From positions 62,001 to 126,000 of the forward strand of contig JAVJSI010000005.1 of the NCBI GenBank assembly GCA_040219515.1: a DNA stretch of 64,000 bases, in the 5' to 3' direction. How positions within the stretch are numbered: the first letter of the stretch is position 1; every line of letters starts with the position of its first letter. The position numbers and the translations under genes were made by a program. The notes under the pieces were generated by a model. The model searched no databases. It had not been told where the DNA came from and worked only from the letters and a program-made list of their open reading frames with translations. This DNA comes from Acidimicrobiales bacterium. Lineage in GTDB: Bacteria; Actinomycetota; Acidimicrobiia; Acidimicrobiales; Aldehydirespiratoraceae. Below are positions 26,102 through 58,610 of the stretch, piece by piece.

Positions 26102-27058
26102 ATGAAGTCGATACGGGTGATCGACGGCGTGCCGACCGTCGAGGAGGGTGAGTTCTCCCTTCGTGAGGGCGACGTGCGGGTGAAGGTGGCCGCCGTCGGA
26201 ATCTGCGGCTCCGATCTGCATCTCCTCGCGGCCGGCTGGGCCGAAGGTCGGGTGCTCGGTCACGAGATCTCCGGCCACCTCGACGATGGGCGAGCGGTGG
26301 CGCTCGAACCGTTCCGATCCTGCGGCCACTGCCGGCCCTGCGCCGACGGCGACCGCCACTCCTGCGCCGAAGGGGCAGAGGTGATGGGCATCATGGCCGA
26401 CGGCGGGATGACCCAGTTCATGAGCGTGCCGACGCAGGCGCTCGTGCCGCTGGCGGCCGGGGTCGACATCGGCCACGCGTCGCTGGTCGAGAACCTGGCG
26501 GTGGCCGTGCACGGGGTCAATCGGGCCCGGCTGGAGAGCCGCGACCGGGTGGCCGTCGTCGGGGCGGGTCCGATCGGTCTCTCCCTCGCCGCGGCGTTGC
26601 GCCGCTCGGGGTTCCCAGTCTCGATTGCGGCGCGTCACGAACACCAGCGTGTGGCCGCCGAACGCATCGGCGCCACCGTGATCGACGACCACACCACGTT
26701 TGCCGACGGGTTCGATGTCGTCTTCGACGCCGTTGGCAACACGGCCTCGATCCAGGAGAGCGTCCGGCGCGTCCGCCGCGCCGGACGGATCTGCATGGTC
26801 GGGTCGTTCTGGGATCCGGTGGCGATCGACATCGGCCTACTGATGCAGGAGGCCGAGCTCATCCCCGCGATGATGTACGGCCGCACGCCCACCGGTCGCG
26901 AGATCGACGGCGCTGCCGCACTCCTCGCCGAGATGCCCGACCTGGGTGACACGATGATCACCCATCGGTTCCCGATCGACGCAGCGGCCGAGGCCTTCGC
27001 CGTCGCCGACGACCGCGCATCCGGTGCGATCAAGGTCGTGTTCGAGCCCCACCGCTAG
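26102..27058 (+). CDS. Zinc-binding alcohol dehydrogenase (MDR family)
   Basis: The 318-residue protein has the medium-chain dehydrogenase layout. VGICGSDLHLLAAG carries the catalytic zinc Cys, GHEISGHL the Glu/His pair, and SCGHCRPCADGDRHSC the four Cys of the structural zinc. The cofactor fold reads VAVVGAGPIGLSLAAALRRSG. At 318 residues it is slightly short for the family, with a compact C-terminus. It oxidises an alcohol or polyol with NAD(P); the substrate is not evident. It starts at ATG 26102, six bases after the histidine phosphatase. Confidence 0.88.
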   Translation: MKSIRVIDGVPTVEEGEFSLREGDVRVKVAAVGICGSDLHLLAAGWAEGRVLGHEISGHLDDGRAVALEPFRSCGHCRPCADGDRHSCAEGAEVMGIMADGGMTQFMSVPTQALVPLAAGVDIGHASLVENLAVAVHGVNRARLESRDRVAVVGAGPIGLSLAAALRRSGFPVSIAARHEHQRVAAERIGATVIDDHTTFADGFDVVFDAVGNTASIQESVRRVRRAGRICMVGSFWDPVAIDIGLLMQEAELIPAMMYGRTPTGREIDGAAALLAEMPDLGDTMITHRFPIDAAAEAFAVADDRASGAIKVVFEPHR

Positions 27059-40075: not shown

Positions 40076-42460
40076 GTGCCGCGTCGACCACTCGTCGGAA
40101 TCCGAGTCGTAGATCTCACAATCGAACGAGGTGAACTCTGCGGGCGACTCCTGAGCGACCTCGGCGCCGAGGTCATCCGGGTCGAGCCGCTCGGTGGTTC
40201 GCCCTCGCGTGCGATGGCGCCGCTCGATGGTGACCACTCGTTGTTCTGGACGTTTCGCAATGCCGGAAAGCTCGGCGTCGAGCTCGATCTCGAAGCCGAC
40301 TCCGGCCGCGATCAGCTCCACGAACTGCTCGCCCACAGCGATGTCGTGCTGGTCTGCGACGAGCCCGGCACCAAGGACGGCACCGGTCTCGATGCCGCGG
40401 AGCTCGCCGAACGTCACCCTCACCTGATCGTCACGAGCCTCACCGCCTACGGCCGCACCGGTCCCTACGCCGGTCGCGACGTGCCCGATGCAGTGATCGA
40501 GGCCACCGGGGGCATGGCCTTCAAGGCGGGCACCCACGAGGGCGGCCCGATCCTGCCGCCTGGCCTCATCGGCGACGACACGGCGAGCCTCATCGGCGCG
40601 TGGGCGGTGCTGTGCGCGCTGTGGCAGAGGGAGGACTCCGGTGCCGGCCAGCTGATCGATCTGTCGGTCAACGAATCGCTGGCCCAGATCACCGATTGGT
40701 CGTTGTCGAACTGGAGCCGCGCCGCTGACGCCGGTTCTCCGTCGCTCGAGATGCGGGCCGGCCCTGGCCCCGTCTACACGATCATCCCCTGCGCCGACGG
40801 CTACGTGCGTCTCGTGGTGCTGAGTACCCGTCAGTGGCACGCCATCCGGGCGTGGCTCGGCGAGCCGGAGTACCTCCAGGACCCCGATCTCGACGGATTC
40901 GTCGGACGCATGATGATCGCCGACGCAGTGCTCAACCCGCTCTACTGCGAGCTTTGGGCCGAGATGTCGATGCTCGACGTCTGTGAGGAAGCGCAGCGCC
41001 GCGGCATCGTCTGCACGCCGATCCTCAAGCCCAACGAGGTGCTCGACAACCCCCACCTCGCCAGTCGTCACACGTTCGACGAGGTCGAGCTCGACGACGG
41101 GCGCACCATGAAGCTGCCGTCGGGATGGTTCGAATTCGACGGCGAGCGCGTGGGTCCCACCGGTCCGCCGCCGCACGTCGGTCAACACAACGACGAGGTC
41201 TTCGCGAACCTCGGCGATGCGCGTCCGGCTCCGGCCGCTCCGCTCGACCCTGCGCCGCCACTGGCGGGGATGAAGGTGATGGACTTCGGACACGGCGGGG
41301 TCGGCGTGGAGACCGGCCGGATGTTCGGCGAGTACGGCGCCGACGTGGTGAAGATCGAGAGCCGCACCTATCCCGACTTCATCCGAGTCGTCCTCGGCGG
41401 CGAGATGTCGCCCTCGTTCGCCTCGTCGAGTCGGAGCAAGCGGTCGCTGGGCGTCAACGCCAAGACCGATCGCGGCATCGAGTTGCTGCGCCAGATGGCT
41501 CGCGACGCCGATGTCGTCATCGAGAACAACTCCACCGGCACCATGACCGCGATGGGACTCGGCTACGAGGTGATGAAGGGCGAGAACCCCGACATCGTGA
41601 TGATGTCGAGCCAGCTCATGGGTTCTCAGGGCCGCTGGGCCGACTGGCTGGGCTACGGACCCAACACCCAGGTGACCGGGGGAATGACCCACCTGTGGAG
41701 CTACGAGAACGACCCGGAGCCGGCCGGCAGTCAATCGATCTTCCCCGACCACTTCGCGGGTCGCACCGGGGCCGTGGCCGCGCTCGCCAACGTGCTCGGA
41801 AATCGCCGCAACGGTGGCGGCGGCACCCATGTCGAGGTGTGCCAGGTCGAACAGGTCGTCGGGGTGATGGGAGATCTCCTCGCCAAGGAATCGCTCGACC
41901 CCGGTTCGGTCGTCCCCCGGGGCAACCATTCCGATCACGGCACGCCGTGGGGGCTGTTCCCGACCGCGGGCGACGACAAGTGGGTTGCCGTGTGCGTGCG
42001 CAGCGATGCCGAATGGGCGGCGCTGGTGGAGGTCATGGGTTCGCCCGACTGGGCCGATCCCGCCATGTCGACCGCCGACCGTCGCGCCGCCGAGAACGAC
42101 ATCGAAGCCAAGATCGCGGAGTGGACCGCGACGATGACGAACGACGCGGTCACCGAGGCATGTCTGGCCGCCGGTGTTCCCGCCGGGCCGATGCTGACGG
42201 GCGCGACCCAGTCGGTCGATCCACACCTCGAGGCGCGCGGCTATCTGGTCAAGCTCCAGCAGCCGCCGATCGGCGGCATGATCTTCGAGGGCGGGGGATT
42301 CCACGCCAGTGCGATGATCGGCCCCGACATCTTCCCGGCGCCCGGGCTCGGACAGCACACCCGTGAGATCGCCGCGGACTGGTTCGGGCTGCCCGATGAC
42401 GAGATCGAGTCGTTGGTGGCCGACGGCGTGCTCGAGACCGATCCGCCCCACGGCGCCTGA
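40076..42460 (+). CDS. Double-length class III CoA-transferase (CaiB/BaiF)
   Basis: The 794-residue protein contains two CoA-transferase III modules in tandem. The first begins LVGIRVVDLTIERGELCGRLLSDLGAEVIRVEPL. The second begins near residue 395 with LAGMKVMDFGHGGVGVETGRMFGEYGADVVKIES. Each has its own GQLIDLSVNESL or GTHVEVCQVEQV segment, the region around the catalytic carboxylate. Class III enzymes usually work as interlocked dimers of single modules, so this protein may fold as a built-in heterodimer. It transfers CoA between carboxylic acids; the substrates are unknown. The start is GTG 40076 behind GGGGGA. Confidence 0.88.
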   Translation: MPRRPLVGIRVVDLTIERGELCGRLLSDLGAEVIRVEPLGGSPSRAMAPLDGDHSLFWTFRNAGKLGVELDLEADSGRDQLHELLAHSDVVLVCDEPGTKDGTGLDAAELAERHPHLIVTSLTAYGRTGPYAGRDVPDAVIEATGGMAFKAGTHEGGPILPPGLIGDDTASLIGAWAVLCALWQREDSGAGQLIDLSVNESLAQITDWSLSNWSRAADAGSPSLEMRAGPGPVYTIIPCADGYVRLVVLSTRQWHAIRAWLGEPEYLQDPDLDGFVGRMMIADAVLNPLYCELWAEMSMLDVCEEAQRRGIVCTPILKPNEVLDNPHLASRHTFDEVELDDGRTMKLPSGWFEFDGERVGPTGPPPHVGQHNDEVFANLGDARPAPAAPLDPAPPLAGMKVMDFGHGGVGVETGRMFGEYGADVVKIESRTYPDFIRVVLGGEMSPSFASSSRSKRSLGVNAKTDRGIELLRQMARDADVVIENNSTGTMTAMGLGYEVMKGENPDIVMMSSQLMGSQGRWADWLGYGPNTQVTGGMTHLWSYENDPEPAGSQSIFPDHFAGRTGAVAALANVLGNRRNGGGGTHVEVCQVEQVVGVMGDLLAKESLDPGSVVPRGNHSDHGTPWGLFPTAGDDKWVAVCVRSDAEWAALVEVMGSPDWADPAMSTADRRAAENDIEAKIAEWTATMTNDAVTEACLAAGVPAGPMLTGATQSVDPHLEARGYLVKLQQPPIGGMIFEGGGFHASAMIGPDIFPAPGLGQHTREIAADWFGLPDDEIESLVADGVLETDPPHGA

Positions 42461-43351
42461 GTGCGCCGGCGTGTCGCCCTCGCCGTTCTGCTACTCGCAG
42501 TGCTCACCTCGGCGTGTGCGACCGACGGTGGGAGCGGCAACAGCGATGACGCTGCGAACGACCGCACGCAGGATGCCGTGACACGGCGGGTCGCCTACGA
42601 CAACGACCCGCTCCAGTTCGGCGACCTCACCGTGCCGGCGGGAGAAGGTCCCTTCGCCGTCGTGGTGTTCATCCACGGCGGCTTCTGGCGCAACGGTTTC
42701 GGCCTCGACCTGGCCGAACCGCAGGCCGCGGATGCCGCTGATCGGGGCTATGCAACCTGGAACGTCGAGTACCGCCGAGTCGGTGATACCGGTGGTGCGT
42801 ACCCGGGAACGCTGCTCGACATCGCCTCTGCCATTGATCATCTCGCCGTGCTGGCCGACGAACATCCGCTCGACCTCGATCGGGTTGCGATCGTCGGCCA
42901 CAGTGCCGGCGGGCATCTCGCCCTGTGGGCCGGTCAGCGAGCGCAGTTGCCGTCGGGGGTGCCCGGCGCCGACCCGGCGGTCGTGCCGTTGATGGTCGTC
43001 GGCCAGGCTCCGGTGGCCGACTTGGCCGGCAACCTGGACCTCGGTGGTGGTGCGGTCGTGGGCTTCATGGGCACCACGCCGGCGGCTGATCCGGCCGCGT
43101 ACGACATCGCCGATCCGGCGCGGCTCCTGCCGGTCGTGGCGCCGCAGCTGATCGTGCAGGGCAGCGACGACACGATCGTGCCCCCCGACCGTGCCGAGGC
43201 CTACGTCGCCCTCGCCGAGTCCTCCTCGGAGCCGGGAAGGGTCGAGCTGGAGTCGTTCGCCGGCGCCGACCACTTCGATGTCATCGACCCCGCCCACCCC
43301 AGCTGGCAAGCCGTCCTCGCCCACCTCCCCCCACCCCAACCCCCAAATTGA
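42461..43351 (+). CDS. Esterase/lipase lipoprotein (BD-FAE/alpha-beta hydrolase)
   Basis: The 296-residue product starts with a lipoprotein signal (MRRRVALAVLLLAVLTSACATDGG). The hydrolase domain has the oxyanion motif FIHGGFWRNGFGLDLAEP, nucleophile in VGHSAGGHLALWAG, the Asp in GSDDTIVPP and the His in GADHFDVID. It resembles bacterial secreted esterases of the HGGFW type. The start is GTG at 42461, directly after the CoA-transferase stop. The stop codon (43349-43351) lies inside a repeated palindromic element. Confidence 0.85.
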   Translation: MRRRVALAVLLLAVLTSACATDGGSGNSDDAANDRTQDAVTRRVAYDNDPLQFGDLTVPAGEGPFAVVVFIHGGFWRNGFGLDLAEPQAADAADRGYATWNVEYRRVGDTGGAYPGTLLDIASAIDHLAVLADEHPLDLDRVAIVGHSAGGHLALWAGQRAQLPSGVPGADPAVVPLMVVGQAPVADLAGNLDLGGGAVVGFMGTTPAADPAAYDIADPARLLPVVAPQLIVQGSDDTIVPPDRAEAYVALAESSSEPGRVELESFAGADHFDVIDPAHPSWQAVLAHLPPPQPPN

Positions 43352-43383
43352 GGCGAGTTCACCACCGCTGCGGTGGTGAACTC
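43344..43383. repeat. Palindromic element, copy 1, with 14-bp perfect arms
   Basis: CAAATTGAGGC is followed by GAGTTCACCACCGC (43355-43368), one T, and GCGGTGGTGAACTC (43370-43383). It lies between two convergent genes and could terminate both. A second, longer copy is at 44441-44491. The esterase stop TGA is made by the CAAATTGAGG part. Confidence 0.75.
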
Positions 43384-43402
43384 ACACCAAGTTCGTTGGG
43401 GA

Positions 43403-44395
43403 TCAGCCGGCGAAGCAGCCCCAGGCGGGGTTGGTGAGCGCAATGTCGTCGAGGGTGAGATCGGCGGGTGAGATGTCGTCGAGGGCGTTCACCCCCTCGG
43501 TGGTCGTCTTGGCGATGGTGCCGGAGAGGGTCGCAGTCACCTCGGTGCCGCCGCACGAGGCGACATCGGCGAGGTCGGTGTCGACGGTGACGGTGCCGTC
43601 GACGATCGTCCATGTGTCGGTGACGGCCGGGGTCGGCTCGTCGGGCTCGAAGACATCGTCACACCAGTTGGCAAAGAGGTCGGTTCCTGCCGTGATCGTC
43701 GCGGACCAGTCCTCGGTGATCGCCAGATCGATCGGAGCCGACAGATCGGGTCCGTCGGCCGCGCTGCCGGTCCACGAGATGACGAGGGCCAGGCTCTGGT
43801 CGGCGTTCCCCTTGGCGAACAGGTAGCCACAGCCGTAGTCGTCGACCAGTGCCGCCGCGGTGGGCACGACGGCCGACGCGTCGGGGTCGTACGGGGTCAG
43901 CGAGGTCACCTCCACGCCGTGTTCCTCGTCAGCGATCATCTCGTCGACGTCGACCCAGTAGCGCACCACCGCGCCGGTCTCGTCATCGAAGTCGAGGTCG
44001 AGGGTGTGGTAGCCGTCGGCGATCGCGGCGTCGATCTCGTCGAAGAGCGTCTCCATGGAACGCGGGCCGGGGTCGTAGAACGATTCTTCGCCGACGGGCT
44101 CGTGTCCGACGACGTCACCGTCGACCACCGTGTTGACCCAGTTGGTCTCGGGGCAGAAGCACAGTTCCGACGTGGCGAGTCGATACGACGTCAGCCCGTT
44201 GGCGGCCCACCGGTCGCGGGCGGCGGCGAGTGAACCCTCGGGCGTGTCGAGATCGACCGGCGCCGCCGTGGTCGTGGTCGTGGTCGTGGTCGTTGTGCCG
44301 TCGCCGGGTGCGCCGGCCTCGGTCGGGCTCGCATCGTCACCGCAGGCCGCGGCGAGCAGCATCACTGAAAGGAGGCAGGGAAGGATTCGTCTCAT
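43403..44395 (-). CDS. DUF6174-like lipoprotein with poly-Thr linker
   Basis: The 330-residue protein is placed at ATG 44395 (MRRILPCLLSVMLLAAACGDD), a clean lipoprotein signal; ATG 44401 is two codons upstream. A linker of ten Thr is encoded partly by GTGGTC repeats (44268-44291 on the plus strand). Residues 55-170 resemble DUF6174: AARDRWAANGLTSYRLATSELCFCP, VVDGDVVGHEPV, TLFDEIDAAIADGYHTLDLDFDDETGAVVRYWVDVDEMIADEE. The C-terminal part has paired Cys and no family I recognise. The gene is bracketed by two related palindromes. Confidence 0.7.
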   Translation of the reverse strand: MRRILPCLLSVMLLAAACGDDASPTEAGAPGDGTTTTTTTTTTAAPVDLDTPEGSLAAARDRWAANGLTSYRLATSELCFCPETNWVNTVVDGDVVGHEPVGEESFYDPGPRSMETLFDEIDAAIADGYHTLDLDFDDETGAVVRYWVDVDEMIADEEHGVEVTSLTPYDPDASAVVPTAAALVDDYGCGYLFAKGNADQSLALVISWTGSAADGPDLSAPIDLAITEDWSATITAGTDLFANWCDDVFEPDEPTPAVTDTWTIVDGTVTVDTDLADVASCGGTEVTATLSGTIAKTTTEGVNALDDISPADLTLDDIALTNPAWGCFAG

Positions 44396-44440
44396 GCCCA
44401 TTTCGACGTTCCATCGCCGACCCGAGTTCCCCACCCATCC

Positions 44441-44491
44441 CAAATTGAGGCGAGTTGACCACCGCAACGGTGGTGAACTCGCCTCAATTTG
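44441..44491. repeat. Palindromic element, copy 2, 24-bp arms with one mismatch
   Basis: The left arm (44441-44464) starts CAAATTGAGGCGAGTTGACC and the right arm (44468-44491) ends GAACTCGCCTCAATTTG, around a CAA loop. The two arms pair over 24 bases with a single mismatch. Its inner part matches copy 1 at 43344-43383. It lies between the inositol-phosphate synthase stop and the start of the DUF6174 lipoprotein gene. It is followed by two GCAAGGGGA-like direct repeats. Confidence 0.78.
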
Positions 44492-44521
44492 CAAGGGGAT
44501 CTGCAAGGGGAAGCGCTCGGG

Positions 44522-45826
<1,305 letters not shown>

Positions 45827-45831
45827 GGCCC

Positions 45832-45880
45832 GATGATAAGTAGACATTCATCATCGGATCAGACAGTGAAGCAAGTCTGA
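45832..45880. promoter_or_regulatory. Divergent ino1/lysR operator region with two dyads
   Basis: The 60-base spacer between the divergent starts holds GATGAT-N12-ATCATC (45832-45855) and TCAGAC-N10-GTCTGA (45859-45880). LysR proteins bind such interrupted dyads (often T-N11-A) near their own divergent promoters. Assignment rests on position and symmetry. Confidence 0.45.
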
Positions 45881-45886
45881 ACTATC

Positions 45887-46759
45887 GTGCACGGGGTGCG
45901 TACCGCCCTACCCGACCTCAGCATCCGTCAACTCGAGTACCTGGTGGCGGTGGCCGATGGTGACAACTGGGCGGCGGCGGCGGCCGAGGTCGGCGTGAGT
46001 CCATCGGCCCTCTCCCAGGGCCTGGCCGAGCTCGAGCGACGCGTGGGCGTACCGCTCTTCGATCGCGACGGTCGCCGCCGGGTCGTGCGTCCCGGCGCGG
46101 CGGAGGTCCTCTCCCACGCCCGCCAGGTGGTGGCGCTCACCGCCGATCTCGCGAGCTGGGCCGACCGCACCCGTGCCGGCGGTTCGGGGCGACTTCGGGT
46201 GGGCATGATCGACGCCGCCGCGGTCGGTCACTTCAGCCCGCAGCTGCGGGCGTTTCGCGCCGCGCATCCCGACCTCGAACTCCTGCTGACCGTCGGGCCG
46301 TCAGGTCAGATCCTCGATGACCTCGAGTCGGGTCGCATCGACATCGGCGTCTGTGTCGAACCCGATCGGTCTCGGCGTGGCCTCGATGTGGTCCCGCTGC
46401 TCACGGAGGACATCGCCGTCTACTCACCCGACGGGCGTCGGCCCCGCCGTCCCGAGACATGGGGTCCGTGGGTCGTGTTCCCCGAGGGCTCGCACACCCG
46501 TGAGCTGATCCTGGCTGCCCTCCGAGAGCTCGGCGCGCCGATCGAGATCGTCGCCGAGTCACATCAGCCGGACGTGCTGCGGGCCATGGTCGGCCTCGGG
46601 CTCGGGTGGACGGTGCTGCCCGTGATCCAGGCCGAGCAGGGCACCGATGCCCTGGTCAACGGTCGGGTGATCGGCAGCCGCGATCTCGTGGTCGTCACCC
46701 GCTCGGGCGCACCGGCCGACCCTGCGGCTCAACTGTTGCTGGCGGCCCTGGCCGCATAG
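45887..46759 (+). CDS. LysR-family transcriptional regulator
   Basis: The 290-residue protein has an N-terminal winged helix-turn-helix (LSIRQLEYLVAVADGDNWAAAAAEVGVSPSALSQGLAELERRVGVPLFDRDGRRRVVRPGAAEVL), followed by a periplasmic-binding-like effector domain (LRVGMIDAAAVGHF...DIGVCVEPD). It starts at GTG 45887; GTG 45896 is an alternative. It is divergent from inositol-phosphate synthase. That differs from the LacI-type control of ino1 described in corynebacteria, so the link is inferred. Confidence 0.88.
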   Translation: MHGVRTALPDLSIRQLEYLVAVADGDNWAAAAAEVGVSPSALSQGLAELERRVGVPLFDRDGRRRVVRPGAAEVLSHARQVVALTADLASWADRTRAGGSGRLRVGMIDAAAVGHFSPQLRAFRAAHPDLELLLTVGPSGQILDDLESGRIDIGVCVEPDRSRRGLDVVPLLTEDIAVYSPDGRRPRRPETWGPWVVFPEGSHTRELILAALRELGAPIEIVAESHQPDVLRAMVGLGLGWTVLPVIQAEQGTDALVNGRVIGSRDLVVVTRSGAPADPAAQLLLAALAA

Positions 46760-46804
46760 AGTCCGGTCGTTCCCAGTGAGACGGACCAGGTTCGGAGAGA
46801 CACA

Positions 46805-47275
46805 GTGAGCAACGCAGCGAAGGCCTTCGAGGCGCTCAAGGCCCACGAAGGCGAGGACGAGGGCCACGGCGACTGGTTCGAGATCACGCAGGATCAGATC
46901 AACCAGTTCGCCGATGTCACCCACGACCACCAGTTCATCCACATCGATCCCGATGCGGCGGCACCGCTGTTCGGCGGCACGATCGCCCACGGGTTCCTCA
47001 CGCTGTCGATGCTCGTGCACCTCACCGAGTCGATCGAGCAGGATCTCCCGCCGCTCGCCGGCATCATGATGGGCATCAACTACGGATTCGACAAGGTGCG
47101 CTTCCTCAACCCGGTGAACTCGGGTAAGCGGGTGCGGGCCCACAGCGTGATCAGCAAGGTCGAACTCAAGGGTGCGGCGATCAACAGCACCCGCACGATC
47201 ACCGTCGAGATCGACGGCGTCGAGAAGCCGGCCCTGATGGCCGAGTGGATCGGCCGCCTGGTCTTCGACAGCTGA
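46805..47275 (+). CDS. MaoC-like dehydratase/hydratase
   Basis: The 156-residue hot-dog protein carries the hydratase 2 motif QFADVTHDHQFIHIDPDAA, with the Asp and His catalytic pair, and the overlapping FGGTIAHGFLTLS segment. Members hydrate enoyl-CoA or related thioesters. The start is GTG 46805 after AGAGACACA, and the gene is 45 bases downstream of lysR. It may begin the operon that runs to the NUDIX gene at 51075. Confidence 0.88.
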   Translation: MSNAAKAFEALKAHEGEDEGHGDWFEITQDQINQFADVTHDHQFIHIDPDAAAPLFGGTIAHGFLTLSMLVHLTESIEQDLPPLAGIMMGINYGFDKVRFLNPVNSGKRVRAHSVISKVELKGAAINSTRTITVEIDGVEKPALMAEWIGRLVFDS

Positions 47276-47313
47276 CAACGACGCACACGACAGCAGAAAC
47301 AGGACAGGCAACG

Positions 47314-48117
47314 ATGAACGATTACCCGATTCGCGTCGGCTCGATGCTCTTCACCATGGTGGACCCCGAGAAGGGCCACGAGGTGGAGTACAACCGTTGG
47401 TACGAGCGCGACCACTTCTATGCCGGTTGCATGATCGGCCCACAGCTCTTCGCCGGCAAGCGGTGGGTGGCCACGAAGGAGCTGAAGGATCTCCGGTTCC
47501 CCCGGGGCGACACCGCAATGGCCGCACCGGTCGAGAAGGGCTCCTACCTCGCCATCTACTGGGTGCTCGAGGGCAAGCACGACGAGCACTTCCAGTGGGC
47601 CCGTGATCAGGTGGTGTGGCTCTATGCGAACGGCCGCGGCTTCCCCAACCGACACCACGCCCACACGGTGCTGCTCGAGAAGCCGTCGTCGCACTATCGC
47701 GACGCCGACCCGGTGCCGATCGAGCTGGCCCTCGACCACCCCTACAAGGGACTCGCCGTGCTCACGGTCGACCCGGCCGAGGGCGTCTCCGACGAGCAGC
47801 TCAAGGCGTATCTGTCCGAAACGGCGCTGCCCGCGCTCATGAACGGATCCGGAGTGGCCAGTCTTGCGTCATGGCACTACCAGCCCACCGGTTCGGGCGA
47901 CACCGACGGCGCACCGATGGATCTCGGCGTGCCCGCCGGCCCGGTCGAGCGCAACGTGCAGCTCTTCTTCCTCGACGAGGAGCCGACTGCGGTCTGGGAT
48001 CGGTTCCACGCCTACGCCGACGCGCTGGCCGAGAGTGGGATGGGCACCGTGACCTTCGCCGCGCCGTTCCTGCCGACGATCGTGGGAACCGACACCTACA
48101 CCGACCAGCTCTGGTGA
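47314..48117 (+). CDS. Uncharacterised protein, possibly two dimeric alpha/beta-barrel modules
   Basis: I do not recognise a named family with confidence. The 267-residue protein starts at ATG 47314 (MNDYPIRVGSMLFTMVDPEKGHEVEYNRWYERDHF). The NRWYERDHFYAGCMIGP segment resembles the conserved start of EthD/Dabb ferredoxin-like proteins, where a short strand is followed by NxWYxxxH. The second half (KGLAVLTVDPAEGVSDEQLKAYLSETALPAL) may repeat this fold. There is no signal peptide. Its GTGA junction with the next gene implies coupled translation. A role in degradation of an aromatic or polyketide-like compound is possible, given the MaoC, SDR and amidohydrolase neighbours. Confidence 0.6.
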   Translation: MNDYPIRVGSMLFTMVDPEKGHEVEYNRWYERDHFYAGCMIGPQLFAGKRWVATKELKDLRFPRGDTAMAAPVEKGSYLAIYWVLEGKHDEHFQWARDQVVWLYANGRGFPNRHHAHTVLLEKPSSHYRDADPVPIELALDHPYKGLAVLTVDPAEGVSDEQLKAYLSETALPALMNGSGVASLASWHYQPTGSGDTDGAPMDLGVPAGPVERNVQLFFLDEEPTAVWDRFHAYADALAESGMGTVTFAAPFLPTIVGTDTYTDQLW

Positions 48118-49670
48118 ACGCGCGGGTCGCCGCCCTGTTCGTGGCGGCGACCCTGCTCGCGTCGGCCTGCGGCGACGCCGAGAGCTCACCGCCGTTGTTG
48201 GTCACGACCACGACGTCAACCCCAACGACGCCCCCCGAGTCGACGACGCCCCCGGTCGCCGGCGGGTCGGTGCGACCGGTGGAGCAGGTCGACTGTCCGG
48301 CTGCACTCGAACGCAGCAACGGGGGCGCGCTGGCGTGTGGCATCGTCACGGTGCCGATCGACCGCGACGACCCGTCACTCGGCGCCACCTCGATCACCGT
48401 GGCCACCCTGGCGGGGACCGACGAAGAGACCACGACGCCGCTCGCGGTGCTGCAGGGAGGCCCCGGTGGCGCCAGCACGGGCCTGGGCGCCTGGCTCCCG
48501 CAGCAGGCGTTCACCCAGGTGTTCGTAGACCAGCGGGGAACCGGCTTCGCGGGGCCGGACTTCGACTGCCCTGAGGTCGACGAGGCAATCCTCGCGACCC
48601 TGACGGTCGACTCCCTGACGGCGATCGACGTTGCGGATGCGGCCTACGACGAGTGTGCGCGCCGCCTCGGTGACGACGTCGTTCTCGCCCACACCGACAG
48701 CGTCGCCCACGCGGCCGATGTGGTCGACGTGATGGCCTCCCTCGGCTACGCCGAATGGGTGGTCTACGGCGTGAGCTACGGGTCGACGATAGGGCTCGAG
48801 GTACTCCGGAGTGGCCCGCCGGGTCTCGTCGGCGCCGTGCTCGACGGGGTGTATCCGACCGACCTGGACACCGATGCCGGTGTGGTGACGTCGGCCGAGC
48901 GCGCGGTGGACCAGATCGACGCGGCGTGCGCAGCGGACCCGTCGTGTGCCGCGTTCGTCGCTCCGGATGGCTTCCGCGACGTCCTCGAACGGGTGATGGC
49001 CGATCTGGCCGTCTCGCCGATGAGCATCCCGGTGGGCACCGACGAGATCGGTGCCGCGACCACGGACGGCGAGATCGAAGTGGTGCTCGACGGCGCCCGC
49101 GTCGCCGAGCTCTCGTTCCTGCTGATGTACCACGAGTCGCTCCTGCGATTCCTGCCGGCCGTCGTCAACGACCTCGACCAACGCAACGAGGCTGCGGCCG
49201 ATTGGCTGGTCCGGACCGGCGCTCGCCAGATCGTCTCGTCACAGGCGGCCAATGACGAGGGCACCTACTTCGGCGTGCAATGCCACGATCGCCTTCCGTT
49301 CACCGACGGACCCGGAGACGATCTCCCGGCATTCGGCGCAGCGGTGGCTGCGGTCTCGCTCGCACGCCTCTGCGCGGGCTGGGACCGCGAACCGGCGCCG
49401 CCGTCGGCGGACGACGCCGTCCGCAGTGCAACACCGACGCTGTTGCTCTCGGGTGAGTTCGACCCGATCACGCCTCCGGCCTACGCGACGGATGTCGCAC
49501 GCGGGCTCGGTCGATCGATCGAGGTGGTGCAGGGCGGACGAGGCCACGGCATCTGGTACGGCAGCGACTGCATCGCGAGCATCGTCGAACGGTTCACCGC
49601 CGACCCCGATGCCGTGCTCGACACGGCGTGTGCCGACACGCCCGTCGAGATCGAATGGGCAGCGCCCTGA
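48114..49670 (+). CDS. TAP-like alpha/beta hydrolase lipoprotein
   Basis: The 518-residue product starts at GTG 48114, overlapping the previous stop (GTGA), with a lipoprotein signal (VNARVAALFVAATLLASACGD) and a Thr/Pro linker. The fold is that of the Streptomyces tripeptidyl-aminopeptidase group: VLQGGPGGASTGLGAWLP, FVDQRGTGFAGPDFDCPE, nucleophile in YGVSYGSTIGLEVLRSGP, VLDGVYPTD, then the TAP C-terminal domain with LLLSGEFDPITPPAYA and GGRGHGIWYG. It may cleave peptides or esters at the cell surface. The frame is open further upstream to 47616 but without similarity. Confidence 0.87.
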   Translation: MNARVAALFVAATLLASACGDAESSPPLLVTTTTSTPTTPPESTTPPVAGGSVRPVEQVDCPAALERSNGGALACGIVTVPIDRDDPSLGATSITVATLAGTDEETTTPLAVLQGGPGGASTGLGAWLPQQAFTQVFVDQRGTGFAGPDFDCPEVDEAILATLTVDSLTAIDVADAAYDECARRLGDDVVLAHTDSVAHAADVVDVMASLGYAEWVVYGVSYGSTIGLEVLRSGPPGLVGAVLDGVYPTDLDTDAGVVTSAERAVDQIDAACAADPSCAAFVAPDGFRDVLERVMADLAVSPMSIPVGTDEIGAATTDGEIEVVLDGARVAELSFLLMYHESLLRFLPAVVNDLDQRNEAAADWLVRTGARQIVSSQAANDEGTYFGVQCHDRLPFTDGPGDDLPAFGAAVAAVSLARLCAGWDREPAPPSADDAVRSATPTLLLSGEFDPITPPAYATDVARGLGRSIEVVQGGRGHGIWYGSDCIASIVERFTADPDAVLDTACADTPVEIEWAAP

Positions 49671-49690
49671 GGGCATGGCAGGATCGCCCC

Positions 49691-50479
49691 ATGATTCTCG
49701 ACGGCAAGACGGTAATGGTCATCGGTGTGGGGCCCGGGCTCGGCTACTCCTGTGCCGCAGCTGCCTTTCGCGACGGCGCGAACGTGGTGATCGTGGCACG
49801 CAACGAGGAACGCCTCATCGCCGCCGCCGACGCACTCGACCCGAGCGGCGACCGCGTGGCGGCCGCCTCGGCCGACATCATGGACCAGGCTTCGCTCGAG
49901 GCCGCGGTCGCTGTGGCGACCGACCGGTTCGGCGGGCTCGATGCCGTCATCAACGTCGCCGCGCTCGACACCGCACACGCCCCGTTCACCGAACTGGACG
50001 ACTCCACGCTGCTAAAGAACCTCGAAGTCAACGTGCTCGGCGCTGTGCATGTGGTGCGCGCCGTCACGCCGGCGTTCGAGGCGCGAGGGGGTGGCTCGGT
50101 GGTGCTGATCGGCTCGCAAGCGTCGCTCAAACCCGTCGATCTCATGCCCCAGTCGGCCTACGCGTCGGCGAAGTCGGCGCTGCTCGCGATGGCCCGCGAC
50201 ATGGCCGCCGAGCTCGGTCCGCGGGGCATCCGGGTCAACACGGTCATCCCGACGTGGATGTGGGGACCCAACGTGAAGATGTACTGCGAGTGGCAGGCCG
50301 GCGAGCGCGGCTGCACCGCCGAGGACATCCGCGACGAGATCGCGCAGGGAATGGCCCTTCGCAAGATGCCGACCGACGCGGACGTCGCCGAAAGCGCAGT
50401 GTTCTTCGCGAGCGATCGAGCCAGCATGATCACCGGTCAGCGGCTGCTGGTGAACGCCGGCGAGTTCTACGACACGTGA
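49691..50479 (+). CDS. SDR-family oxidoreductase
   Basis: The 262-residue classical short-chain dehydrogenase has the cofactor loop VIGVGPGLGYSCAAA, VNVAALD-like INVAALDTAHAP, catalytic Ser in LIGSQASLKPVD, and YASAKSALLAMARDMAAELGPRGIRVNTVIP. The C-terminus DRASMITGQRLLVNAGEF is normal. It uses NAD(P); the substrate is unknown. The next gene starts inside its stop (GTGA, 50476-50479). Confidence 0.9.
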   Translation: MILDGKTVMVIGVGPGLGYSCAAAAFRDGANVVIVARNEERLIAAADALDPSGDRVAAASADIMDQASLEAAVAVATDRFGGLDAVINVAALDTAHAPFTELDDSTLLKNLEVNVLGAVHVVRAVTPAFEARGGGSVVLIGSQASLKPVDLMPQSAYASAKSALLAMARDMAAELGPRGIRVNTVIPTWMWGPNVKMYCEWQAGERGCTAEDIRDEIAQGMALRKMPTDADVAESAVFFASDRASMITGQRLLVNAGEFYDT

Positions 50480-51075
50480 GTGTGCCGGTCGTTCCGGCGG
50501 CCTCGGTGCTGATCGTCGACGACCGTCCCGACCTCCACGTGGTGATCGGTCGGCGGCGCCCCGGGTCGATCTTCGTCGGCGGTCTCATCGTGTTTCCGGG
50601 CGGTGGGGTCGACCCCGAAGATCGCAACTCGGCAGCGCGTCGGCGGGTTCCCGCCGGCGTGGTGCCGGAACTGGGCCGCAAGGAAGGGGCGGCGTTTCTC
50701 CACGCCGCCATTCGGGAGACGCAGGAGGAGGTCGGCCTCGACATCGCCGGTCCGCACCCGGTCGAGCCCGGCGACTTCCCCCATGTCGGTCACTGGATCA
50801 CGCCTGTGGAAGCCCCCCGCCGGTACGACACGCACTTCTTTCTGGCCCGCCATCGCGGTGGCGCGGTGGTCGCGGACCAGGAAGAACTCACCGACGCCTG
50901 GTGGGAACGGCCGGCCGACGCCCTGCGAAAGATCGACGGCGGCGAGCTCGAAGCGATTCTTCCGACCATCGAATTCCTGCGGTCATTGTCGGCATATCGC
51001 AACGTGAGCGACGCATTCGCCGGTGCCGCTTGTGGAGAACGACGGGACCATACGAACGGCTGGACCAGCTTCTGA
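50476..51075 (+). CDS. NUDIX hydrolase
   Basis: The 199-residue protein starts at GTG 50476. The NUDIX box is split by a long insertion: GGLIVFPGGGVDPED, then about 23 residues, then HAAIRETQEEVGLDI with the REtxEE metal ligands. The FPGGxVDPxD form resembles CoA-diphosphatase-type NUDIX proteins (NUDT7/19), which would fit nearby CoA-linked genes. A different nucleoside diphosphate substrate is equally possible. The C-terminus (GERRDHTNGWTSF) lies beyond the domain. Confidence 0.82.
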   Translation: MSVPVVPAASVLIVDDRPDLHVVIGRRRPGSIFVGGLIVFPGGGVDPEDRNSAARRRVPAGVVPELGRKEGAAFLHAAIRETQEEVGLDIAGPHPVEPGDFPHVGHWITPVEAPRRYDTHFFLARHRGGAVVADQEELTDAWWERPADALRKIDGGELEAILPTIEFLRSLSAYRNVSDAFAGAACGERRDHTNGWTSF

Positions 51076-51164
51076 TATCGGCTATCCGGAGGGTTTTCCC
51101 CAGAAGTTTGCCGTTGTGTTGCAATTCGTTTGCCGAGCATTGGGAAATTCTGCAGGTCATGCAG

Positions 51165-51330
51165 TAAGGTCGCCGTGGGTTGGATGTCGAACGGATGCAG
51201 GGCCGAACGACATCGATCCGGGAGCGCGAGCTCCCGTCCCCCTCCAGGGAAACTGGGGCCCGGTCGACGGCACACGCCGACCGGGCCCGAGCCTTTTTGT
51301 CGCCCCCCAGACTCGAGGAACGGCCACCGG
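51165..51330 (+). ncRNA. Structured 5' leader of the aquaporin gene, candidate riboswitch/attenuator
   Basis: A TANNNT-type -10 box (TAAGGT, 51165-51170) is followed by three successive hairpins. The first pairs GATGTCG (51183-51189) with CGACATC (51208-51214) around an 18-base loop. The second is GGGAGC-GCGA-GCTCCC (51220-51235), with a GNRA loop. The third pairs CCAG (51244-51247) with CTGG (51253-51256) across GGAAA and may extend to GG at 51257-51258. Bases 51256-51258 are shared with the 5' arm of a strong terminator, so the third hairpin and the terminator exclude each other. This matches riboswitch or attenuator design. It does not match any class I can name. Confidence 0.5.
51256..51298 (+). 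terminator. Strong intrinsic terminator upstream of aquaporin
   Basis: GGGCCCGGTCG (51256-51266) pairs perfectly with CGACCGGGCCC (51278-51288) and is followed by TTTTT (51294-51298). It is the clearest Rho-independent terminator in the window. It lies 33 bases before the aquaporin ATG and 180 bases after the NUDIX stop, so it may be a conditional attenuator rather than the end of the NUDIX transcript. Confidence 0.85.
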
Positions 51331-52005
51331 ATGTCCACTGACGCGAGCAGCGCCGATCGGGGCCGCCGATACCTCGCCGAGTTCATCGGGACGGCGTTCC
51401 TGCTCATCGGCGTGATCGGCTCCGGCATCATGGCGCAGAACCTCATCGAGACCGATGTCGGCATGCAACTACTGGCCAACGCGGCAGCGACCGTCGGCGT
51501 GCTCTACGCGATCATCTTGATGTTCGGGCCGGTGAGCGGCGGCCACTTCAACCCGGCGGTCACGATCGCCGATGCATGGCTCGGCAACCGGGCGTGGTCC
51601 GACGTCGGCCCCTACGCCGTTGCGCAGATTGCCGGCGGCGCGCTCGGCACTGTGCTCGCCAATCTGATGTTCGATCTCCCGGCCGTCGATCTCAGTCACC
51701 AGGACAGGGGCGCGGCGCACCTGTGGCTCGGTGAGGTGGTCGCCACGTTCGGACTCGTGCTGCTGATCTTCGCGCTCGTGCGGACCGGCCGCGCACACTT
51801 GGCTGCGGGGGCGGTCGCGGCCTACATCGGCGGGGCCTACTGGTTCACCTCGTCGACGTCGTTCGCCAACCCGGCCGTGAGCGTCACCCGCACACTGTCC
51901 GACACCTTCGCCGGGATCGAACCGGCATCGGCACCGATGTTCATCGTGATGCAGCTGCTCGGAATGGCCTTGGCGGTGGCGGCAGTGCGAGTCTTGTACC
52001 CGTGA
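51331..52005 (+). CDS. Aquaporin / MIP-family channel
   Basis: The 224-residue membrane protein starts at ATG 51331. It has six hydrophobic segments and both pore half-helices: GGHFNPAVTIADAW (first NPA) and SFANPAVSVTRTL (second NPA). YLAEFIGTAFLLIGVIGSGIMAQNL is the typical first helix. It is on the short side for the family, like actinobacterial MIP proteins often linked with arsenic genes, but no ars gene lies here. It should pass water, glycerol or another small neutral solute. It is preceded by a terminator-containing leader and overlaps the next gene by four bases. Confidence 0.9.
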   Translation: MSTDASSADRGRRYLAEFIGTAFLLIGVIGSGIMAQNLIETDVGMQLLANAAATVGVLYAIILMFGPVSGGHFNPAVTIADAWLGNRAWSDVGPYAVAQIAGGALGTVLANLMFDLPAVDLSHQDRGAAHLWLGEVVATFGLVLLIFALVRTGRAHLAAGAVAAYIGGAYWFTSSTSFANPAVSVTRTLSDTFAGIEPASAPMFIVMQLLGMALAVAAVRVLYP

Positions 52006-53183
52006 CTGCCACCGAGACCAGCCCCGACCTCTTCGAGCGCTTCGAGGTCATCGACGTCGACACCCACGTGACCGAACCTCCCGACGTGTGGACCGCTCGC
52101 ACGCCGACCGCGATGCACGATCGCGTGCCCCACATCGAACGCATCGACGGCAACGACGTCTGGATGTGCGACGGCGAACGGATGGGACACCCCGGCTACT
52201 ACTCGATGGCCGGATTCGACGGGATCATGCCGCTGAAGGTCCCCGCGACCTTCGACGAGATCGATCCGGCGATGTACGACCCTCATGCCCGCCTGAAGTT
52301 CATGGACGAGCAGGGCATCCGGGCGCAGGTGCTCTACCCGAACGTCGGCGGCTTCGGCAATGCCTACTTCATGAAGCTGGGTGACCCCGATGTGGTTCGT
52401 GCCTGTGTGCGGGCGTTCAACGACTGGATCACCGATTTCACCTCGGCGGACCCGAACCGCCTGATCGGCGTCACCGCCGTACCGTTCTGGGACATGGACT
52501 TCGCCCTCGAGGAGATCGAGCGAGGCATCGAGGCCGGACACCGGGCCATCAACTTCTGCAATCAGCCCCAGGACCACGGCATCGCCCCGCTGGCGTCGAC
52601 GCACTGGGATCCGATCTGGACGGCTGCGCAGGAGGCGGGCATCTCGGTGAGCTTCCACGTCGGCGGCGGCTCGATGGGCACGCAGTTCCAGGACACCGCC
52701 GACATGGGCTGGATGACCAACTTCGCCAAGGTGTCGTCGCTCATCTTCCTCGACAACATGCGCTGCATCGCCGACCTGCTCTTCGGCGGAGTGTGTCACC
52801 GCTTCCCCGACCTGAAGCTCGTCTCGGTCGAGTCGGGTGCGGGCTGGATCCCGGGGGCCATGGAGTCGTTCGACTGGCAGTGGCAGAACGGCGGCGTGCG
52901 CCGTGAGCACCCCGAATACGATCTGCTGCCGTCGGAGTACTTCCGTCGCCAGATCTACGGCTGTTTCTGGTTCGAGCAGGAGGCGGCCCGGTTCGCGATC
53001 GATCGGTTCCCCGACAACATCATGTTCGAGACCGACTATCCGCACCCGACCTGCCAGCATCCCGGACCGGCCACTCCCGCCCAGTTCCCCCGCGACTACG
53101 CGACCGGCGCCTTCTCGTCACTCGACGACACCGTCCTGCAAAAGGTCTTCCACGACACCGCCGCATCCCTCTACGGCCTCTAA
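52002..53183 (+). CDS. Amidohydrolase family protein (amidohydrolase_2)
   Basis: The 393-residue TIM-barrel protein starts at GTG 52002 (GTGA overlap with aquaporin). VIDVDTHVTEPPDVW holds the DxDxH metal-binding start. FHVGGGSMG, VSVESGAGWIPGAMESFDWQW and MFETDYPHPT carry the later His and Asp. Members include decarboxylases and hydrolases of aromatic or cyclic compounds. A paralogue is encoded at 57432-58610. The substrate is unknown. Confidence 0.87.
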   Translation: MTATETSPDLFERFEVIDVDTHVTEPPDVWTARTPTAMHDRVPHIERIDGNDVWMCDGERMGHPGYYSMAGFDGIMPLKVPATFDEIDPAMYDPHARLKFMDEQGIRAQVLYPNVGGFGNAYFMKLGDPDVVRACVRAFNDWITDFTSADPNRLIGVTAVPFWDMDFALEEIERGIEAGHRAINFCNQPQDHGIAPLASTHWDPIWTAAQEAGISVSFHVGGGSMGTQFQDTADMGWMTNFAKVSSLIFLDNMRCIADLLFGGVCHRFPDLKLVSVESGAGWIPGAMESFDWQWQNGGVRREHPEYDLLPSEYFRRQIYGCFWFEQEAARFAIDRFPDNIMFETDYPHPTCQHPGPATPAQFPRDYATGAFSSLDDTVLQKVFHDTAASLYGL

Positions 53184-57431: not shown

Positions 57432-58610
57432 ATGGCTGCTCTCGACTACAAGGCGTTCGACGCCGACAACCACTACTACGAGGCGGAGGACGCGTTCATC
57501 CGCCATGTCGACCCGAAGATGCACAAGCGGTGCATGCAATGGGCCGAGGTCAACGGTCGCAAGCGACTGCTCGTGGGCGGCAAGATCAACCGCTTCATCC
57601 CCAACCCGACGTTCGATCCCGTGGCCCGGCCCGGCTGTCTCGACGACTACTTCCGCGGCAAGGTCGCCAGGGACAACATCGTCGAGGCATTCGGCGAGCT
57701 CGTGCCGATTCCCGACGAGTACCGCGACCGTGACAAGCGCCTCGAGGTGATGGACCGCCAGAACCTCGAGTCGTGCTTCATGTTCCCGACCCTGGGTGTC
57801 GGCATGGAGTCGTCGCTCGAACACGATGTCGAGGCGATGCTCACCGCATTCGACGGGTTCAACAAGTGGCTCGACGAGGACTGGGGCCTCAACTACAAGG
57901 ACCGCATCTTCACCGCCGGCTACATCACCCTCGCCGATGTCGACTGGGCACTCGACCAACTCGACTGGATGATCGAGCGCGACGTTCGCGTCGTCAACAT
58001 GCGGCCGTCGTCGGTGCCCGACGGCAACGGCGGCCGCCGCTCCCTCGGCCATCCGGCCCACGATCCGTTCTGGAAGAAGATGAACCAGTACGGCATCACC
58101 CTCGCCATGCATTCCGGCGACGCCGGCTACGAGTTCCTCAGCGACTACTGGGGCATGACCGACGAGTTCGAGGCGTTCCGTCAGAACGCGTTCAAGTCGC
58201 TTCTGACCTACTCGCCGATCAGCGACGCGCTGGCCTCGCTGATCGCCGAGAACGTGCTCAGCGAGCACACCAACATCCGGGTCGCCACGATCGAGACCGG
58301 CTCGGAGTGGGTGCAGCCGCTGGTCAAGAAGTTCGAGAAGACCTACAAGCAGCAGAAGCACATGTTCGCCGAGGACCCGATGGACGTCTTCCGCCGTCAG
58401 GTCTGGGTGTCGCCGTACTACGAGGACGACCTCGTCGACCTCCGCGACAAGATCGGTGCCGACCACATGCTGTTCGGATCCGACTGGCCCCACGCCGAGG
58501 GTCTCCCGGAACCGACCGACTTCATCGACGACCTCCACGAGTTCAACTCCGAGGAGACCGAGAAGATCATGCGCACCAACGGCCTGGCCCTGACCCAGCG
58601 AGCCGTCTGA
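57432..58610 (+). CDS. Amidohydrolase family protein (amidohydrolase_2), second copy
   Basis: The 392-residue protein begins KAFDADNHYYEAEDAF, the DxDxH-type metal start. LAMHSGDAGYEF, VATIETGSEWVQPLVKKFEKTY and MLFGSDWPHAEGL provide the later ligands. It is distantly related to the protein at 52002-53183. The substrate is unknown. It lies alone between two minus-strand genes. The 195-base upstream spacer is shared with the GerMN lipoprotein gene and shows no clear dyad. Confidence 0.87.
   Translation: MAALDYKAFDADNHYYEAEDAFIRHVDPKMHKRCMQWAEVNGRKRLLVGGKINRFIPNPTFDPVARPGCLDDYFRGKVARDNIVEAFGELVPIPDEYRDRDKRLEVMDRQNLESCFMFPTLGVGMESSLEHDVEAMLTAFDGFNKWLDEDWGLNYKDRIFTAGYITLADVDWALDQLDWMIERDVRVVNMRPSSVPDGNGGRRSLGHPAHDPFWKKMNQYGITLAMHSGDAGYEFLSDYWGMTDEFEAFRQNAFKSLLTYSPISDALASLIAENVLSEHTNIRVATIETGSEWVQPLVKKFEKTYKQQKHMFAEDPMDVFRRQVWVSPYYEDDLVDLRDKIGADHMLFGSDWPHAEGLPEPTDFIDDLHEFNSEETEKIMRTNGLALTQRAV

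Follow-up and report, generated by a model that had tools for sequence, protein, structure and literature searches.

C-rich small regulatory RNAs (sRNAs) are the closest described counterparts of the RNA reported here. UCCC motifs of Firmicutes sRNAs such as LhrC and RsaE lie in loops or single strands and bind Shine-Dalgarno regions, with LhrC being additionally controlled by a two-component system (PMC4132741). The actinobacterial sRNA 6C (Rfam RF01066) has C-rich loops that are reported to bind several mRNAs. Attenuator and riboswitch leaders form another point of reference, since they combine hairpins and a terminator with adjacency to the gene that follows; of the 28 genomes with the RNA in question, 16 have a channel gene in that place.

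The RNA lies in a 64,000-nt stretch of Acidimicrobiales DNA, called the window here. It displays a C-rich motif much as LhrC and RsaE do, although these belong to another phylum and the likeness is one of motif description rather than sequence comparison; it shares C-rich loops with 6C RNA, from which it differs in hairpins and length; and unlike attenuator and riboswitch leaders it lacks a conserved third hairpin and a constant downstream gene and belongs to no Rfam class. An initial annotation had proposed an unrecognised riboswitch or attenuator before an aquaporin gene. Sequence comparison identifies the stretch as a real, previously uncatalogued structured RNA without an Rfam family, which we consider, with somewhat better than even confidence, to be a free-standing sRNA gene of ~120 nt with its own promoter and not an aquaporin switch. 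By analogy with the systems above, it probably represents a new family of free-standing C-rich-loop sRNAs that pair with Shine-Dalgarno regions.

Layout of the locus and comparison with known RNA families

The features of the locus are collected in Table 1. A hexamer of the form TAnnnT precedes the RNA at all 29 compared loci (from 28 genomes; termed the first form to set them apart from a diverged form described below), at a distance of 6 nt (10 loci), 7 nt (18) or 9 nt (1), which bears out the -10-like box proposed close to hairpin 1, TAAGGT at 51165-51170 in the window. This constant hexamer, established by comparison of the loci, points to a promoter of the RNA's own, as expected of a free-standing sRNA. 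A consensus scan of the window stretch returned no sigma-70 promoter. The simple terminator scan of the same stretch also returned none, because the T run starts 5 nt past the stem and the scan permits a gap of 0–2 nt; the strong terminator with an 11-bp stem and five T that the initial annotation had described is present, and its hairpin covaries in relatives.

Table 1 Features of the RNA locus in the window.
Feature	Positions	Strand	Details
NUDIX gene upstream of the RNA	50476..51075	+	Pfam PF00293, E 2.5e-11
Upstream boxes TTTGC / GTTGC / TTTGC	51107..51133	+	51107-51111, 51118-51122, 51129-51133; 11-bp period; putative operator
-35-like TTGGGA	51140..51145	+	19 nt before the -10; putative, weak match
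-10 hexamer TAAGGT	51165..51170	+	from sequence
RNA gene	51177..51298	+	~122 nt; putative 5' end GGGTT through T run; ends inferred from promoter and terminator
Hairpin 1	51183..51214	+	51183-51188 with 51209-51214; inner 51192-51194 with 51203-51205
Hairpin 2	51219..51236	+	CGGGAGC-GCGA-GCTCCCG; GNRA loop GCGA
C-rich segment TCCCCCTCCAGGGA	51237..51250	+	holds invariant core CCCTCCAGGGA; predicted mini-hairpin with CCUCC in the loop
Terminator hairpin GGGCCCGGTCG / CGACCGGGCCC	51256..51288	+	11-bp stem, 51256-51266 with 51278-51288
Terminator T run	51294..51298	+	five T; starts 5 nt past the stem
MIP (aquaporin family) gene	51331..52005	+	Pfam PF00230, E 2.8e-23; neighbour, not obligatory partner
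Amidohydro_2 gene	52002..53183	+	next gene after the RNA in three MIP-less relative loci (L141, L146, L148)

Folding of the window sequence alone favoured a structured element as a whole, none of 200 shuffles matching the stability of the 172-nt stretch (z -3.34), and the part before the terminator (51160-51255) was no better than its shuffles (z -1.07; 29 of 200 as good). Given this lack of folding excess, single-sequence folding is weak evidence for the leader hairpins, for which the comparative evidence from covariation is strong. In the minimum-energy fold of the window RNA, the C-rich segment forms TCCC(CCTCCA)GGGA at 51237-51250 in place of a third hairpin. The reading frame of the MIP gene is open upstream across the entire RNA (ORF 51130-52005); the MIP open frames are shorter in close relatives, for example 220–225 aa in genomes G001, G004 and G005.

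Rfam scans with gathering and relaxed thresholds assigned no family to the window, nor did a scan of the loci of eight relatives, in agreement with the earlier failure to place the element in a known class. The best relaxed match, ncS035, reached 19.9 of 79 bits and was rejected as far below threshold. Likewise, the 6C RNA model, whose gathering score is 47, reached 16.8 bits in the window, with the match lying over the terminator, and was rejected. This model gave no match in 41 relatives, a weak test in that the control detected 1 of 14 known genomes and none above the cut-off. 6S RNA (RF00013) was absent from the matches in the window and in six genomes, with the control detected in 5 of 14. 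Among the titles listed from the open-licence literature, none pointed to an earlier description of an aquaporin-linked riboswitch or of such an RNA, and the only match for regulatory RNA in Acidimicrobiia concerns, as far as its title and the start of its abstract tell, palindromic repeats.

Conservation, covariation and a second form

Relatives were gathered through the MIP protein, which had a match in 56 of 81 genomes and gave 80 named MIP loci; the complete RNA lies upstream at 13 of these, and one more (L044) is cut by a contig end. In the closest relatives, DNA conservation spans promoter and RNA and ends at the terminator (blast; window 51094-51301 in L032). Among the five MIP-linked members of the window's genus, mean pairwise identity was 0.909 for the RNA, 0.746 for the preceding 85 nt, 0.784 for the MIP coding sequence and 0.418 for the stretch between RNA and MIP; codon-position identities were disregarded, as they came from an ungapped comparison with inconsistent offsets. 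A covariance model (R1) built from 15 sequences detected the first form in 28 of the 51 genomes of the family. In the order-wide sample it was found in 8 of 298 genomes, all eight from the same family, with 12 candidates per genome scored in such order-wide model searches, which could have overlooked weakly similar RNAs in other families. Antisense-strand matches (e.g., window 51249-51373, minus strand) arise when the self-complementary terminator is read backwards and were excluded from the counts, alignment A4, which contains such rows, was left unused, and weak R1 matches with E 0.016–0.37 (L075, L037, L069, L102 and window 26821-26943, minus strand) were ignored.

Comparison of the sequences establishes both conservation and covariation of the RNA. 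In the 29-sequence alignment, 14 of 26 base pairs changed on both sides and 92.8% of cells were paired. The covariation score and the double-change count were reached by none of 500 shuffles and the "further pair types" measure by two of 500, with shuffles that ignore relatedness among the sequences. Support was strongest for the terminator hairpin, where both sides had changed in 7 of 13 pairs and 98.7% of cells were paired. In hairpin 1, 6 of 9 pairs changed on both sides, with 78.1% of cells paired in its outer part, the weakest of all, and 95.4% in its inner part; in hairpin 2, 1 of 4 counted pairs did so, with 93.1% of cells paired. Pair counts are less reliable in hairpin 2 and in hairpin 1 of genus g2, where alignment A2 is misregistered. 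The apical loop of hairpin 1, ATGCAGGG, is conserved and contains GCAGGG (51197-51202). The main stems covary in relatives and the third hairpin does not, so that the absence of covariation named in advance as a refutation of the initial proposal applies to the third hairpin alone: of the three hairpins initially described, hairpin 1 and the GNRA hairpin 2 are conserved and covarying, and the third is present in the window yet not conserved. The comparison supports the proposal of an unrecognised structured RNA, conserved, covarying and without an Rfam family.

Model R2, built from the 29 sequences, matched weakly in genome G018 and genus g6. Weak matches without the core were dropped by eye (L170 in G009, L171 in G044, L174 in G034 and L175 in G047), and those kept have the core and the terminal hairpin of the first form together with a different 5' half. 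This second form occupies other loci, as none of 13 loci (1.8–3.1 kb) matched window ORFs beyond position 30000. A further model, R3, placed it in 17 of the 51 family genomes (16 of 16 in genus g6 and 1 of 2 in g5). At the thresholds used, no genome of the 51 has both forms, 45 have one of the two and six have neither. The 5' halves of the two forms align poorly, and we infer their common origin from the core, the terminal hairpin and the complementary distribution; alignment A3, in which the second form's terminal hairpin is out of place, did not enter the pair counts. The gene after the second form encodes an AMP-binding enzyme at L163 and a P-II nitrogen regulator at L172 (G018; PF00543, E 1.3e-24).

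Outside the family, 15 of 287 genomes had exact core patterns, compared with 4 of 298 for the reversed control; no such pattern has a single uninterrupted family-like hairpin directly behind, and L194 has a strong interrupted one. An R3 match in G322 (L179, E 0.0097) was rejected as a second form, being a terminator-like hairpin behind a frame that, from its sequence, we take to be chaperonin-like. This GC-rich hairpin (~1550-1585 of L179) ends in GGCGCGTC, has no T run and resembles the terminal hairpin of the second form.

Neighbouring genes and competing helices

Among the 28 RNA-bearing genomes, MIP is on another contig in seven (G003, G007, G016, G027, G032, G033 and G035) and was not found in five (G006, G014, G021, G022 and G026), so that the RNA is, by genome comparison, independent of the aquaporin gene and the link between them incidental in 12 of 28. 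MIP is the next gene at 16 of the 29 loci. An Amidohydro_2 gene orthologous to that at window position 52002 follows at three (L141, L146 and L148), the Amidohydro_2 gene of window position 57432 at three, a histidine phosphatase gene at one and other same-strand genes at three (L150, CopD-like but below cut-off; L151, radical SAM; L153, DNA methylase). The next gene is convergent at the remaining three (L145, MFS; L152, an M20 orthologue; L142, a 356-aa ORF for which no Pfam family passed its cut-off). Behind an intact RNA, the end of the MIP coding sequence survives as a remnant at L141 (86% over 57 nt, E 7e-17) and, more weakly, at L148 (1e-6) and L146 (2e-4); the remnants sit between RNA and amidohydrolase gene, as if MIP had been deleted and the RNA kept. 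Genome G035 carries a second RNA copy at L145 (6974-7093), behind a CoA-transferase orthologue; this copy lacks the box element described below (9 of 12 positions, no better than shuffles) and has a less perfect terminal stem. Around the RNA, window 40076-53183 holds CoA-transferase III, alpha/beta hydrolase, inositol-1-phosphate synthase, LysR regulator, MaoC, SDR, NUDIX and amidohydrolase genes and resembles a catabolic gene cluster; of 18 first-form context loci, 16 contain the inositol-1-phosphate synthase orthologue.

These gene orders bear on the reading of the RNA as a cis-acting leader, a riboswitch or attenuator in which a terminator and a competing helix would control whichever operon follows, MIP in many genomes. 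A same-strand gene lies downstream at 26 of 29 loci, which exceeds random orientation, though the loci are related by descent, and at loci without a T run transcription from the RNA promoter probably continues into MIP. Against this stand the varying downstream genes, with MIP right behind the RNA in 16 of the 28 genomes and a convergent gene at 3 of 29 loci, and the retention of the RNA where MIP is lost, elsewhere or not found, which together undercut the initial assignment to a riboswitch or attenuator before aquaporin.

The third hairpin (CCAG 51244-51247 with CTGG 51253-51256) does exist in the window and overlaps the terminator arm by one base, as had been proposed, but it is not conserved: 75.2% of its cells are paired, and none of its pairs shows a compensatory change. 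A helix between the CCCT of the core and the RGGG of the terminator arm could form in 95.7% of cells, which would suit a switch; however, in the four cells in which the shared terminator base is changed, all four keep the terminator pair, as A-U, and lose the CCCT pair. No conserved mutually exclusive helix was therefore found, the third hairpin being unconserved and the CCCT helix lost in these four of four cells. The 5' GGGTT could pair with bases after hairpin 1 (92.3% of cells) or after the terminator (95.8%), which would also suit a switch, but neither pairing exceeds its shuffles. Taken together, we regard a cis-acting leader as unlikely.

Another reading is a dual role, in which genera without a T run would use the sRNA as a regulated 5' leader for the operon next to it as well. 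At least four T follow the terminator stem at 12 of 29 loci, including 7 of 7 in the window's genus; in other genera, none of the 11 loci where MIP comes directly after the RNA has them, and RNA–MIP distances there are short; across the 17 loci without four T, a possible MIP start codon comes as near as 10 nt after the RNA (L158). An RNA without a T run may, judging from these sequences, double as the 5' leader of MIP, and a secondary leader role is conceivable in genera g3, g8 and g10, where T runs are absent and MIP is close. Some terminators of the order may, however, work without a T run, as the hairpin ending in GGCGCGTC at L179 suggests, and a dual function strikes us as very unlikely. 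That the element is a bare terminator of the NUDIX transcript with no function of its own is hardly credible, for although it follows the NUDIX gene in the window and several relatives, the TAnnnT hexamer precedes it at 29 of 29 loci, it is conserved behind other genes (L145, L153 and the second form), it has an invariant core and it is better conserved within the genus than neighbouring coding DNA.

Invariant core, upstream boxes and possible mode of action

The free-standing sRNA that we favour would act through its core. The eleven columns of CCCTCCAGGGA, located before the terminal hairpin, are invariant in the 25 rows of A3, covering both forms, in an alignment of 25 chosen loci that were found by motif CCTCCAGGGA and all carry it. 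Over 29 sequences, the UCC of the core has a mean unpaired probability of 0.99, whereas roughly half of the preceding C run is paired, as is most of AGGGA. CCUCC is the anti-Shine-Dalgarno core of 16S rRNA. In the RNA's own genome, CCTGGAGGGGG was found at 142 sites when up to one mismatch was allowed and the reversed control at 128, so without enrichment, and the only exact site among the matches listed (100 of the 142) is the RNA's own antisense. Of 29 of the 142 sites that were examined, eight lie 2–15 nt before a start codon with a frame of at least 80 codons, and none of the 29 was a convincing target.

Upstream of the promoter, the window boxes scored 12 of 12 positions (0 of 300 shuffles as good), with a box motif picked after viewing the sequences. 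Among the 29 first-form loci, 10 carry three boxes with an 11-bp period that agree at all 12 positions, a score equalled by no more than 1 of 300 shuffles; the remaining 19 had 9–11 of 12, some elsewhere in the locus and several no better than shuffles. In the nine second-form promoters scored, GTnAC boxes are separated by 6-bp spacers, seven promoters having four such boxes and two having three, and no further GTnAC pair with a 6-bp spacer occurred in the second-form loci scored. These boxes had scored low in a first scan, whose scanned part excluded them, and were covered by a second one. Boxes at 11-bp steps are common to both forms. GTnAC-n6-GTnAC is a published form of the GlnR box (PMC10704036) and MtrA binds similar repeats (PMC13189361). 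Direct repeats of this form also precede the second form, whereas the TTTGC/GTTGC boxes of the window are degenerate and not canonical GTnAC. The P-II gene after the second form in G018 fits the GlnR-like boxes of that form, and the boxes provide a lead towards a GlnR/MtrA-like regulator.

Combining these features, transcription would start near 51177 from the RNA's own promoter (-10 TAAGGT), governed by the upstream operator of 11-bp-spaced boxes, and would end at the GC-rich terminator and T run. The resulting RNA would consist of two hairpins of variable sequence, the invariant C-rich core and the terminator hairpin, with the core predicted to display CCUCC in a small loop. By analogy with the UCCC-motif sRNAs, the core may then act in trans, pairing with G-rich Shine-Dalgarno regions of target mRNAs and blocking their translation, and the RNA might do so within a response-regulator (GlnR/MtrA-like) network. 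A bolder version, which we hold to be quite unlikely, would make it a lineage-specific master sRNA under a GlnR-/MtrA-like response regulator, an anti-Shine-Dalgarno mimic present as one of two diverged forms in 45 of 51 genomes and recruited a second time as a 5' leader in several genera, so that one gene would act both in trans and in cis.

What lies beside such an RNA in a single genome says little about its function: MIP is not its neighbour in 12 of the 28 RNA-bearing genomes. The comparison adds a well-supported structured RNA family to one family of Acidimicrobiia, and supplies a concrete seed together with a candidate regulator box.
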